DNA from: a virus
Strand: one strand, 5' to 3'
Virus record (IMG/VR): IMGVR_UViG_3300032087_002456
Coordinates: 1-28,448 of that record
Length of the DNA stretch: 28,448 bases
The position numbers and the translations under genes are program-made. Under the pieces are notes generated by a model that saw nothing but the letters and a program-made list of their open reading frames with translations, ran no database searches and was not told the DNA's origin. Below are positions 1,702-28,448 of the stretch, piece after piece (the stretch's first letter is position 1; each line of letters opens with the position of its first letter).

Positions 1702-4130
1702 TGGCATCAGTAACACAACGCATCCCTAATCTTCTAGGTGGTGTTTCAAAACAACCAGACGATAAAAAATTACCTGGACAAGTTGTTGAATCTATCAATG
1801 CTTACCCCGATGTTGCGTTGGGACTGACTAAACGTCCAGGTATTCAACACATTAAAAACCTTGGTACTGGTACCACCTATGACAATGCTAAATGGTTTTA
1901 CATCCACAGAGATGATGATGAGCGTTATATCGGTTGCATTACTCCTGCCGCTGGAGGTAATACCGGTGAAATTTACATCTGGAATGCAGTAAGTGGTGTC
2001 GCTTGTACTGTTAATTATGGTACCGGTGCACAGGCTTATCTCACAGCAACACGTAATGACTATGACGTTCTTACGGTTCAAGATACTTCTATCATCACCA
2101 ACAAAACGGTTACGGTTGCAGCTCGTTCAGCCACTTCACACACTAATGATCTGAAGGCTACTATCATTTTACGTGATGTTGCTTATAGTGCTGAATACAA
2201 GGTTGTAATTGTAGTCGGTGGGACTACCTATACGGCTACCTATACCTCCCCGACTAATGCTTCTAACGCTGCTAACACTACTTTAGGTGTTACTTCAGGT
2301 GAAATTTTACAAGGCATTCAGACTGCTCTTACTAATCAGAATATACCGAATCTGACAATTAACAGACTTGATTCTGTGCTTGAGCTTACTAATACGTCAA
2401 CCATGAAAGTTACCGCTACTGGTGGTGCTGCCACTAACAAGCTTGATGCTGTTATGGAGACAGTTGACGATGTCAGTGAGCTTCCTAGTACTTCTGTCAA
2501 TGGACGAGTAGTTAAAGTAGTTAATACCATTAGTGCATTTGACACATACTTTGCCAGTTTTATTGCTTATGACGGTGTCTCTGGTAAGGGATATTGGGAA
2601 GAAGCTCTTGGTTTCAATGTTTCTCCTGGACTAGATAATGCAACAATGCCTCATGAGTTGATCAACACTGCGATCAACACATTCACTTTTAAGCAAGCTA
2701 CTTATACTGACCGGCTTGTGGGTGACGACGAAACTAATTCACATCCTAGTTTTGTTGGAAAAAAAATTCAGCAAGGATTCCTCCATGCAAATAGGTTGGG
2801 ATTCTTGACTGGTGACAACGTGTCTATGAGTCAAGCTGGTGAATTCTTCAATTTTTACCATGTATCTGCACGGACCACTATTGACTCTGACCCTGTAGAT
2901 ATCAGCTGTTCTGCAATTCGACCTGCAGTTCTTCATGGCATTGTCTCTACTGCTCAAGGTCTTGTCCTATTTAGTCGTGATCAGCAGTACATGTTAACTG
3001 CTATTGATAACATCATGACCCCACGCACAGCCAATATTAGGACCATCTCTTCTTACGAAATGGATACTGATATTGACCCTGTTGACGTTGGCTCAAGTAT
3101 CAATTTCATTAGTAAGACTAGCAGCTTTACACGTGTCTTCTCTATGCAAACGCGTGGACAGCAAGACAACCCCCAAGTGCTTGACGTTAGCAAAATTGTC
3201 AATGAGTACATTCCTAGCAACATTGATACTTTGATTGCTAGCCCTCAGAACCAATTCATTGCAATGAGTAGTCAAACATCTAACAAGATGTTTTTATATA
3301 GTTATTATAATGATGGTGAAAAAAATGTACTTGAATCTTGGTACAGCTGGCAGTTGCCTGGATTGGTTCAGGCGTGTGCTGTTGATCAAGACGATATGTA
3401 TGTCGTTACCAAACAAGCAAACCAATACACACTCGGTAAAGCAACAGTCAACCAAAGCCCTGACACTGCGATCATTGTTAACAGCAACGGTGCTCGTGTC
3501 AATCCAAGTGTTGACCTTTACGCCACTGCTAGCAGCGTTGTCTACGACTCTGCAAACGAACAGACCAAGTGTTACCTCCCATACAACGATGTGTCTGGTT
3601 TGAAGCCAGTCCTGTTGATTGCCGGTAGTACTGCTTCGGGTAGTTTCGTTGAATCTGGATTCACTATCTCCCCTGAGCGTGGAACGGATGGAACAGGTGA
3701 CTACTTTATTGTTCCCAAAAAAGACCTAACCTCACAGGCATCTGATGTCATTGTTGGATTCAAATACGACTTTAATGTTGAACTTCCTACCACATTCTAC
3801 GCACGTAGTGATGATGGAAAGATTGTTGACTTTACTGCACGACTGACAATTGCACGTTATGTGTTTTCACTAGGCTTGTCTGGTTTGATGTCGTTCAAGG
3901 TAAAAGCAAAAGGCAGCAGTGAATGGTACGAACTTTCACCTGTTGCTGATGCTAACTATTACCTAGCTAATGACATTCCACTTACTGACGAATCGTACGT
4001 GACACTTCCTATCCACCAAAATAACAAGAATTTTACACTTAAACTTTTCAATGATTCCCCATTTCCCGTATCGGTTGGGTCGATGATGTGGGAAGGAAAC
4101 TACTCACCTAGATATTACCGGAGGACTTAA
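1701..4130 (+). CDS. Tail tubular protein B (T7 gp12-like nozzle)
   Basis: The protein has 809 residues, near the 794 of T7 gp12. It starts with ASVTQRIPNLLGGVSKQPD and then NAYPDVALGLTKRPG, the hallmark N-terminus of this family, and ends with a segment on the fit of the nozzle (PFPVSVGSMMWEGNYSPRYYRR) that is also common in it. It forms the tail nozzle below the gp11 ring and carries the fibres. The ATG shares its A with the TAA of tail tubular protein A. Codon use is more AT-rich than in the capsid gene. Position and length both support the call. Confidence 0.93.
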   Translation: MASVTQRIPNLLGGVSKQPDDKKLPGQVVESINAYPDVALGLTKRPGIQHIKNLGTGTTYDNAKWFYIHRDDDERYIGCITPAAGGNTGEIYIWNAVSGVACTVNYGTGAQAYLTATRNDYDVLTVQDTSIITNKTVTVAARSATSHTNDLKATIILRDVAYSAEYKVVIVVGGTTYTATYTSPTNASNAANTTLGVTSGEILQGIQTALTNQNIPNLTINRLDSVLELTNTSTMKVTATGGAATNKLDAVMETVDDVSELPSTSVNGRVVKVVNTISAFDTYFASFIAYDGVSGKGYWEEALGFNVSPGLDNATMPHELINTAINTFTFKQATYTDRLVGDDETNSHPSFVGKKIQQGFLHANRLGFLTGDNVSMSQAGEFFNFYHVSARTTIDSDPVDISCSAIRPAVLHGIVSTAQGLVLFSRDQQYMLTAIDNIMTPRTANIRTISSYEMDTDIDPVDVGSSINFISKTSSFTRVFSMQTRGQQDNPQVLDVSKIVNEYIPSNIDTLIASPQNQFIAMSSQTSNKMFLYSYYNDGEKNVLESWYSWQLPGLVQACAVDQDDMYVVTKQANQYTLGKATVNQSPDTAIIVNSNGARVNPSVDLYATASSVVYDSANEQTKCYLPYNDVSGLKPVLLIAGSTASGSFVESGFTISPERGTDGTGDYFIVPKKDLTSQASDVIVGFKYDFNVELPTTFYARSDDGKIVDFTARLTIARYVFSLGLSGLMSFKVKAKGSSEWYELSPVADANYYLANDIPLTDESYVTLPIHQNNKNFTLKLFNDSPFPVSVGSMMWEGNYSPRYYRRT
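4120..4124 (+). promoter_or_regulatory. Ribosome binding site that fixes a TTG start
   Basis: GGAGG lies 8 bases before TTG 4133. No ATG exists nearby in that frame, and the frame opens directly into the hydrophobic N-terminus expected for a gp14-like protein, so the site supports TTG as the start. Confidence 0.7.
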
Positions 4131-20919: not shown

Positions 20920-21468
20920 ATGCCCCACCCAATCTTCGTTACAGGACCACAAAGGAGTGGCACAACAATTGCAGCTCGTATCTTAGCTAACGATCTTGAT
21001 CGTACCTATGTAGACGAGTCTGAATACCACGCAGAGACGCTACCGTCTGATGCTGTTGTACAAGCTCCTTTCCTGTATAAGTTTGTACCTGAATTGTCAT
21101 TTAAACACCCAGGTGCACACTTTATTTTCATGCAGAGAGACAAGCTGCAGATAATTAAAAGTATGGAACGTATCGAGTGGTACAAAGACTACATCGACCA
21201 TCCAGACTTTTATTCCACCTACGTAGATACCGTATACAACACCTTAGATGCTTTTAAGTTGACGCTTACAGAAGATCGGTGGACAGACCTGCAATACGAC
21301 TCACTACGCACACATCCTTTATTTATAAATGACAGAAAGACGTTCACGGCGCGGCAGTGGGAAAAAGACAAGCCCATCGGTCCAACAACCTGGAGAAACG
21401 ACGACTGCGCTAAGTCTTATTCAATCAGACTTCAAGATTTTCCTTCAAGCTCTGTGGCAGCAACTTGA
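20920..21468 (+). CDS. Sulfotransferase-like protein
   Basis: The protein has 182 residues. The P-loop FVTGPQRSGTT (residues 6-16) is the 5'-phosphosulfate-binding motif of PAPS-dependent sulfotransferases. R73 and S81 in MQRDKLQIIKSMERIEWY match the spacing of the Arg/Ser pair that binds the 3'-phosphate. The rest is short for the family (often 250 residues or more), and a late substrate-binding part may be missing. It could transfer sulfate to a host or virion molecule; the substrate cannot be told. The last 140 bases overlap the start of terL in another frame, so its C-terminus and the N-terminus of terL constrain each other. Confidence 0.72.
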   Translation: MPHPIFVTGPQRSGTTIAARILANDLDRTYVDESEYHAETLPSDAVVQAPFLYKFVPELSFKHPGAHFIFMQRDKLQIIKSMERIEWYKDYIDHPDFYSTYVDTVYNTLDAFKLTLTEDRWTDLQYDSLRTHPLFINDRKTFTARQWEKDKPIGPTTWRNDDCAKSYSIRLQDFPSSSVAAT

Positions 21469-27084: not shown

Positions 27085-27453
27085 GTGGTAAACGCCCACC
27101 TAGTTGTGGATCCACTTGCCAACCAGTGCACGGACGCACGCATCGAGAAGGTCCACCAAGCCTTTGATCTGCTGCTCCTGCTGCAGCGTGAGATCCCTGG
27201 TCAATTGGTCAGCACCTTCCTGTACATCGCCTCACACGACGGCTGTCACAAGCAAGCGTTGGAACAGGAGCTGAACATGACCACTGCATCATCCAGCCGC
27301 AACACCGATTGGTTAAGTGATGGACGCATGGGTATCAAGCATGCCGGGTTAGGGCTCATCACAAAGGAGCAAGACGGACGGCGACAAAGACTTCGCCTCA
27401 CACCAAAAGGCAAGCAACTTGCCAAACAAATGAAAACCATCATTTATGGCTAA
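27085..27453 (+). CDS. MarR-like winged-helix regulator
   Basis: The protein has 122 residues from GTG 27085. FDLLLLLQREIPGQLVSTFL begins a helical part, then the helix-turn-helix ALEQELNMTTASSSRNTDWL, then the wing and final helix LGLITKEQDGRRQRLRLTPK. LTPKGK is a common MarR ending. I recall a MarR-like gene beside the integrase in P-SSP7 and relatives. It overlaps the integrase by 8 bases, so both are co-expressed; it may set the choice or timing of integration or early transcription (inference). An inverted repeat in its own promoter suggests self-control. Confidence 0.78.
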   Translation: MVNAHLVVDPLANQCTDARIEKVHQAFDLLLLLQREIPGQLVSTFLYIASHDGCHKQALEQELNMTTASSSRNTDWLSDGRMGIKHAGLGLITKEQDGRRQRLRLTPKGKQLAKQMKTIIYG

Positions 27454-28306
27454 GCAATTCACCTGGGGTGAAGCCGTAGAGACAACGTTGCGAACACGTC
27501 CAACGTGGCGTAACGGATCAGGTCGCAAGCCAGCGATCATCAACTGCGGTCACTTCACCCGACTCCAAGGACTCAGCTTTCCTTGCAACCGCATCAACGT
27601 CACCGTCATGGAAGACATTGGTGTTGAGCTGGAAGAGGAAGGCAAGTCAGACGCCACGATCAACCGTGTCACGTCTGCTGTGTCCACTGTGCTCAACCAC
27701 TGCCATCGGCGTGAGTTGTGCAACAAACCTCCGATGTTCACCAAACGCAAGGAGGATGAAGTGCGCCTCACTTGGTTCTCCAAGGCTGAGGTAGATCAGC
27801 TCATCCACGCAGCGATTGACCCGTTCGATCGCAAGGACGTGGCAGACATCGTTGCTGTTGCTGCTTACACAGGCATGCGACAGGGTGAGCTACTGAAGAT
27901 CAAGGCACGTGACATTGACTTAGGCGCAGGTCTGATTCATGTCGGTGGACGCCCTGATCAAAAGACCAAGGCAGCCAACTACCGTGCCATTCCTGTCCAC
28001 GAACGTATATCAGGGCTGCTCTCTGAGCGTCTTGAGTACCTCTCACCCAACGTGAAGGTGTTCGGTGACGAATGGAATGACAAGGACCAATTGCTGAGGT
28101 CATTCAAGCGAGTACGTAAGTACGCAGGCTTGGATCCGTCCCTTGTGTTTCACAGCTTGCGGCATTCATTTGCCACATGGCATGCAGAAGCAGGGACACC
28201 CATGCGAACACTCATGACGCTCATGGGACACAAGCGCATCGAGACCACCCTTCGTTACGCAAAGACCACGGACTCAGCCTTAAACGAGGCTATGGCTGCG
28301 ATCTAA
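27446..28306 (+). CDS. int: Tyrosine integrase
   Basis: The protein has 286 residues. The catalytic set is visible: R145 in YTGMRQGEL, H236-x-x-R239 in HSLRHSFATWH, H262 in LMGHKRIETTLRYA and the nucleophile Y271. The N-terminal 100 residues form the core-binding domain (DATINRVTSAVSTVLNHCHR); a long arm-binding domain is absent or very short. It would join phage and host DNA at a tRNA-Leu site, as a matching attP core lies 84 bases behind it. The ATG at 27446 overlaps the MarR-like gene by 8 bases. Integration by marine cyanopodoviruses has been proposed from such genes, but lysogens are rarely seen. Confidence 0.95.
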   Translation: MAKQFTWGEAVETTLRTRPTWRNGSGRKPAIINCGHFTRLQGLSFPCNRINVTVMEDIGVELEEEGKSDATINRVTSAVSTVLNHCHRRELCNKPPMFTKRKEDEVRLTWFSKAEVDQLIHAAIDPFDRKDVADIVAVAAYTGMRQGELLKIKARDIDLGAGLIHVGGRPDQKTKAANYRAIPVHERISGLLSERLEYLSPNVKVFGDEWNDKDQLLRSFKRVRKYAGLDPSLVFHSLRHSFATWHAEAGTPMRTLMTLMGHKRIETTLRYAKTTDSALNEAMAAI

Positions 28307-28342
28307 GCGTGTCTACCGGGTGCGCTGTGCTACCTTTTCTCG

Positions 28343-28379
28343 GTCGGAACGCCGACGTTCTCAGCGAGTCTCATCGCTG
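28343..28379 (+). other. Two small hairpins between int and attP
   Basis: GTCGG (28343-28347) pairs with CCGAC (28352-28356) around AACG. CAGCGA (28362-28367) pairs with TCGCTG (28374-28379) around GTCTCA. No T-run follows, so a terminator is unlikely. They may be protein-binding dyads beside the attachment site. Confidence 0.4.
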
Positions 28380-28389
28380 GAATCCCCAC

Positions 28390-28441
28390 GCGGATGTGGC
28401 GGAATTGGTAGACGCGCTAGTTTCAGGTTCCTGAGCGTCTA
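28390..28441 (+). other. Putative attP core: 5' part of tRNA-Leu(CAG)
   Basis: 28390-28428 reads as the first 39 bases of a cyanobacterial tRNA-Leu: acceptor strand GCGGATG, TG, D arm with GCG/CGC and the AATTGGTAGA loop, anticodon strand CTAGT, and the loop TTCAGGT with anticodon CAG. The following bases (TCCTG) cannot pair with CTAGT, so the tRNA is broken exactly after the anticodon loop. TAGACGC (28409-28415) and GCGTCTA (28435-28441) form a perfect inverted repeat centred on that 7-base loop. A tRNA-Leu fragment behind int is known from cyanophage P-SSP7. I call it an attachment site, not a tRNA gene. Confidence 0.8.
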
Positions 28442-28448
28442 AAATACG

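Follow-up and report, generated by a model that had tools for sequence, protein, structure and literature searches.

The virus record IMGVR_UViG_3300032087_002456 (IMG/VR) is linear and consists of 28,448 bases, all of which were analysed here as the window. The gene content of the window is T7-like, with head, tail, internal virion and terminase genes. At 20920-21468, just before the terminase gene, lies a phage gene whose product matches a Pfam sulfotransferase domain (Sulfotransfer_3, E = 1.8e-12). At the right end of the window, a pair of genes for a regulator and an integrase (int) is followed by a block derived from a tRNA gene (Table 1). The block has the sequence GCGGATGTGGCGGAATTGGTAGACGCGCTAGTTTCAGGT, begins 83 bp beyond the stop codon of int, so that the putative attP is intergenic and lies after int, and is followed by TCCTGAGCGTCTAAAATACG up to the end of the contig at 28448. 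No tRNA was identified by ARAGORN in the 28,448 bases.

Table 1. Features at the right end of the window.
Feature	Position	Strand	Basis
Small transcriptional regulator (gp0.7/MarR-type position), upstream neighbour of int	27085..27453	+	PHROG 9665, E = 3e-35
Tyrosine integrase, 286 aa, core-binding and catalytic domains	27446..28306	+	Pfam PF00589 at residues 110-276, E = 2e-25
Conserved phage leader just 5' of the block, around TCTCATCGCTGGAATCCCCAC	28368..28389	+	Conserved columns in 63 attP clusters
attP identity block, first 39 nt of host tRNA-Leu(CAG)	28390..28428	+	Identity to host genes
Left arm of perfect 7-bp inverted repeat, TAGACGC	28409..28415	+	Window sequence
Left core half-site TAGACGCGCTAGT, common to host attB	28409..28421	+	Best inverted partner of right-arm profile
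Proposed 7-bp overlap (crossover), anticodon loop TTCAGGT	28422..28428	+	End of identity and dyad centre
Right, phage-specific core half-site TCCTGAGCGTCTA (P')	28429..28441	+	9 of 13 positions mirror left half-site
Right arm of perfect 7-bp inverted repeat, GCGTCTA	28435..28441	+	Window sequence

The leader, TCCAATCGCTGGAATCCCCAC, occupies columns at about -57 to -37, which are conserved in divergent phages (63 attP clusters), and could be a promoter, a processing signal or a protein-binding sequence. A promoter search on the leader returned a single weak sigma-70-like match that is positioned downstream of attP and is uninformative, and the attP region had no match in Rfam.

End of the tRNA-Leu block in hosts and related phages

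In cyanobacterial tRNA-Leu(CAG) genes, the identical 39 nt are followed by ACTAGTGG, and these genes diverge from the window at 28429. Position 28428 is the final base of the 7-nt anticodon loop, and an earlier reading made from the sequence only, according to which identity to tRNA-Leu stops exactly at the end of this loop, was thus borne out; host tRNA-Leu(CAG) genes with an identity block ending at 28428, which were to be sought as a check, do exist. Assignment of a host from the block was rejected, as a 30-mer is also present in tRNA-Leu genes of many phyla.

A pattern scan of viral contigs with the block as the query identified 120 stretches carrying it, and in none of these was the block followed by the tRNA 3' half, phage DNA being present instead. 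Given that searching with the block itself is a source of bias, a second set of relatives was chosen by integrase similarity alone (n = 47). The block was found downstream of int, at a varying spacing, in 44 of the 47 and ended at the same final loop base in all 44 carriers, while the remaining three (L145, L149 and L150) had no block within 700 bp downstream of int. Among the non-redundant right arms, 49 of 63 depart from the host sequence at the very next base, and the rest continue for 1-5 bases.

As the window contig ends 20 nt after the block, relatives were used for the right side, and what lies beyond these 20 nt is known only from near-identical phages. In L122-L127 and L029, whose integrases are 93-98% identical to that of the window, the sequence beyond the position equivalent to 28448 is phage DNA with a terminator-like hairpin. 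Hence, the further check of whether a tRNA is completed beyond 28448 revealed phage DNA and no tRNA 3' half in these near-identical phages.

In three other relatives (L135, L136 and L164; integrase 75-78% identical), the block is derived from tRNA-Leu(UAG), and here too the anticodon loop marks its exact end. As judged by sequence comparison, this is a natural target switch between isoacceptors. In the CAG and UAG blocks alike, it is the loop boundary that is kept, and not a particular sequence.

Inverted repeat centred on the anticodon loop

The inverted repeat TAGACGC/GCGTCTA had been described as perfect, centred on the loop and spanning 33 bases, and it is exact in the window sequence, with its centre at 28425 in the middle of the loop. 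For arms of 13 bp around one fixed centre, seven consecutive perfect matches would arise by chance with a probability of about 7 x 4^-7 = 4e-4. The dyad was assessed further in a set of 63 right arms that are <75% identical to each other (non-redundant clusters); the tRNA-side arm is nearly fixed among the relatives, and the quantity tested was the mirroring on the phage side.

At the loop centre, the mean mirror match in the 63 clusters was 5.44/13, as compared with 3.25 for shuffled arms (maximum of 1000 shuffles, 3.92), and at other dyad centres within 4 bp it was no higher than 4.02/13. The excess was present for positions +10 to +16 alone and for +6 to +16 but gone at +17 to +20. The match is thus confined to +4..+16 around the loop centre, and the arms end at +/-16. 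The majority consensus of the phage arm mirrors the left arm at 10 of 13 positions and then at 0 of the next 4. When 13-mers from 28250-28428 were scanned in both orientations, the inverted 28409-28421 ranked first of 334 as a partner of the phage-arm profile, and permutation of the left arm, which keeps phage relatedness, gave p = 5.6e-4 overall and 8e-5 for +6 to +16.

The right arm of the window (9/13; 7/7 in the outer part) lies at the extreme of this distribution, so its perfect repeat is partly luck superimposed on a real, degenerate half-site. As judged from the 63 clusters, the comparative dyad supports the 13+7+13 core layout of tyrosine recombinases that had been proposed, ending as it does at +/-16. 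The related claim that the phage-specific right arm completes the dyad is true of the window, but among relatives the completion is imperfect (mean 5.4/13). Similarly, the locus is best read as an attP core whose overlap coincides with the loop, but the description of this core as predicted to the base was too strong, because most relatives have a degenerate right arm and the cleavage positions are putative.

If the inverted repeat were mainly an RNA hairpin, regulatory or terminating, in the int transcript, its centring on the loop would be incidental. A predicted RNA fold of L122 does pair UAGACGC with GCGUCUA. However, the z-score of this fold is only -1.46, and a separate terminator-like hairpin is located directly after the repeat. 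Moreover, the arm of the relatives keeps only ~40% of the pairs, so that a stable stem is not to be expected, and the match is nonetheless confined to +4..+16. An RNA hairpin is therefore an improbable explanation of the repeat.

Some relatives (e.g. L058, L018 and L005) have a palindrome, CAYTNNTG, at about +22 to +29 from the loop centre, beyond attP and ahead of the terminator-like hairpin. The strict pattern occurs in 13 of the 63 clusters against 0.4 expected, and is real in this subset. An initial interpretation of the palindrome as a duplicate of the host 3' stem was dropped, as only those 13 clusters include the strict pattern.

Predicted integration products and natural junctions

Taken together, 28390-28441 very probably represents the attP core of a T7-like cyanophage that integrates in tRNA-Leu(CAG) and has its overlap at the anticodon loop; both the exact points of cleavage and integration by the window phage itself are inferred. 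The integrase encoded upstream would bind two inverted half-sites of ~13 bp around the 7-bp anticodon-loop sequence, and strand exchange would occur with the identical loop in the host tRNA-Leu(CAG) gene. The product on the int side would be a complete tRNA, with its 5' half and upstream DNA from the phage and its 3' half from the host, and on the far side the host promoter and 5' half would be joined to phage DNA, with the terminator-like hairpin soon after. After integration, the sequence upstream of the host tRNA would thus be that of the phage, opposite to what is usual.

The predicted int-side junction consists of the phage leader, the block and ACTAGTGG, and the predicted far junction of host upstream DNA, the block and TCCTGAGCG. 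When the window up to 28428 was joined to the host 3' half, ARAGORN identified a complete 84-nt tRNA-Leu(cag), and it identified no tRNA in attP or in the predicted attL.

Natural counterparts of both junctions were found on one contig (C12) of a Synechococcus-like genome, G284, in which the block occurs twice, 45.5 kb apart. The segment at 2571-48107 (L314-L316; also L285 and L301-L303) corresponds to IMGVR_UViG_2716884610_000003. Between the two block copies there are 48 ORFs (94% coding), which include genes for an integrase, a T7-type RNA polymerase, a DNA polymerase, a primase/helicase, capsid-, tail- and portal-like proteins, thyX and a terminase, in an order that runs from RNA polymerase through terminase to integrase. 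The terminase shares 81% identity with its counterpart in phage S-CBP42. At attL, phage DNA directly follows a 5' half of the host type, GGAATTGG, and at attR int is followed by a phage-type 5' half, GGAATCTGG, which has an extra base, and by the host 3' half, giving a complete tRNA. The different 5' halves at the two ends place the crossover within roughly 27 bp containing the loop. Thus, the complete tRNA expected at the int-side junction, with its 5' half and upstream sequence supplied by the phage, was obtained in the predicted joint and is seen in this natural prophage. The left flank is host DNA that matches the same neighbourhood in other Synechococcus genomes, and no match was found for the 2.5 kb of right flank. 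C12 therefore apparently includes a complete T7-like prophage in tRNA-Leu(CAG). In 400 genomes sampled from the family of G284, the 22-bp core was present in 224, and two copies on one contig were found only in G284.

Two further junctions are of the attL type. Positions 1-54 of L092 (IMGVR_UViG_3300033058_000047) comprise 15 nt of DNA found upstream of the host tRNA-Leu gene, the block and the phage right side, and a T7-like RNA polymerase gene follows. The start of this record is a probable natural attL junction, a reading that depends on 15 bases, and it could be chimeric. In genome G069, the 5' half of tRNA-Leu(CAG) is joined to unrelated DNA exactly after the loop (contig C30, L341), and a complete copy of tRNA-Leu(CAG) is present on a separate contig (C17, L339), as would be expected of another element at the same site.

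Integrase matches in the host genomes G040, G128 and G211 were set aside, as none of them adjoins tRNA-Leu(CAG) or a fragment of this gene. Terminases 82-85% identical to that of the window are encoded in G072 (C5, 67734-69461) and G366 (C25, 10481-12271), small (1.2 Mb) picocyanobacterial genomes without a copy of the tRNA-Leu(CAG) block; these may represent infected cells, binned phage or other insertions.

The block would have no role in integration if it were a broken phage-carried tRNA-Leu gene or a captured host fragment, a view that fits with the presence of only half a tRNA and with the carriage of tRNAs by many cyanophages. It is, on the other hand, very unlikely given that deletion of attP abolishes integration of phage S-TIP37 (PMC8776855). 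In dozens of divergent phages, moreover, the block always lies a short distance after int and ends at the same loop base, and natural prophages are located exactly at the block point. Only 20 nt of the contig remain beyond the block, and the group I intron known in cyanobacterial tRNA-Leu genes sits in the anticodon loop, but the chance that the tRNA continues past the contig as such a gene is negligible, since the near-identical phages have a hairpin and phage DNA next, the gene after int in reference phages encodes RNA polymerase, L122 has no Rfam match at 2300-3000, and the known intron is in the gene with the UAA anticodon and that of the window is CAG. Such a gene would have its 3' exon, ACTAGTGG...CATCCGCA, further downstream.

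With 28390-28441 read as an attP core, the likely crossover of a widespread ocean cyanophage group is narrowed to seven bases, and the half-site model is open to trial on short DNA. The G284 prophage is direct material for studies of stable integration, and it matters because intact prophages are said to be absent from these hosts, marine picocyanobacteria (PMC8776855).

An apparently arm-less integrase and relation to known systems

All catalytic residues (R145, K175, H236, R239, H262 and Y271) are present in the window integrase and are invariant in 17 relatives. In an AlphaFold2 model (pLDDT 86.7; 17 sequences), a four-helix core-binding bundle starts at residue 7. Given the 286 aa, the catalytic domain from residue 110 and this model, no N-terminal arm-binding domain or beta domain is visible. 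The protein thus differs from lambda-type complex integrases, which have such a domain, and consists, like the Brujita integrase, of core-binding and catalytic domains only. Its structural matches included XerA, the arm-less Brujita integrase (5vfz) and a Tn1549 Int that lacks the arm domain. The annotated int genes of S-TIP37 (849 bp) and P-SSP7 (873 bp) are similar in length to that of the window.

Direct repeats near the core were absent from three of four attPs and limited in the fourth to one pair ~150 bp downstream, though degenerate sites could escape such a search. No excisionase family was found among the small ORFs tested in the window, which is part of a genome only. In a survey, 'simple' recombinases were rare in phages (27, against 410 with an arm-binding domain), and excisionases were found only alongside arm-binding types (PMC8138268).

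These features suggest a core-only, possibly reversible integration system. It may be, though this is put forward tentatively, that T7-like cyanophages with an arm-less integrase, a core-only attP of ~33 bp and no excisionase can integrate and excise with equal possibility, which would explain integration without lysogens, and that G284-like lineages have been stabilised. If so, reversibility, beyond the mere lack of a repressor, would account for integration that is frequent enough to be observed without recovered lysogens, and occasional lineages such as the G284 prophage nevertheless became stable. The arm-less integrase is thus a mechanistic lead on integration without lysogens.

The kind of integration site described here is already known, and the system of the window is not new, because P-SSP7 and S-TIP37 integrate in tRNA-Leu via sites made of the same 39-bp first half (Sullivan 2005, cited in Shitrit et al. 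2021; PMC8776855). The latter paper also states that deletion of int abolished integration of S-TIP37, as did deletion of attP, and that lysogens of these phages were not obtained; the text consulted reports integration and does not describe a crossover on the anticodon loop or the dyad. As in these phages, 39 bp directly downstream of int in the window match the first half of a cyanobacterial tRNA-Leu perfectly, but its integrase, though homologous, is only 40-43% identical to theirs. The order regulator-int-attP-RNA polymerase is shared by P-SSP7 and S-CBP1, and the window includes the regulator-int-attP part; in S-TIP37, the gene before int is annotated as 'hypothetical protein, DNA-binding domain'. 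What is added here is the comparative evidence for the phage half-site, the arm-less integrase, the variant block from tRNA-Leu(UAG) and a T7-like prophage that is apparently intact; the half-site comparison, the arm-less reading and the G284 prophage were not found in the open-access literature searched. The site is distinct from that of tRNA-dependent lysogeny (PMC10865867), in which a short core does not rebuild the tRNA and the phage carries a tRNA gene, since the 39-bp block rebuilds the tRNA and the window has no tRNA gene.

At anticodon-loop sites, the overlap lies on the 7-nt loop and is flanked by symmetric half-sites, and the window resembles them in the end of its block, in the proposed overlap and in the inverted half-sites on either side. 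Such sites of tyrosine integrases were reportedly designated 'A' by Williams in 2002. They form a textbook class (PMC8371274; Islander, PMC4383910), and the overlap of SSV1 Int is the anticodon loop (archaeal review, PMC8371274). The window phage differs in carrying the tRNA 5' half, an arrangement that is in the minority among Islander islands (5' fragment in 159 of 3919; PMC4383910), and its phage-side half-site mirrors DNA of the D-arm and anticodon stem and not the host 3' stem.

The Brujita integrase is arm-less and directionless (Lunt & Hatfull 2016, as described in PMC8138268 and PMC7194413). The attP of Brujita-type systems lies inside the repressor gene, whereas that of the window lies in the intergenic region after int, and the two integrases share only 20% identity. 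Finally, pTN3-like archaeal integrases (PMC8371274) also have attB in the 5' half of a tRNA gene, as proposed for the window, though in an unrelated element and host.
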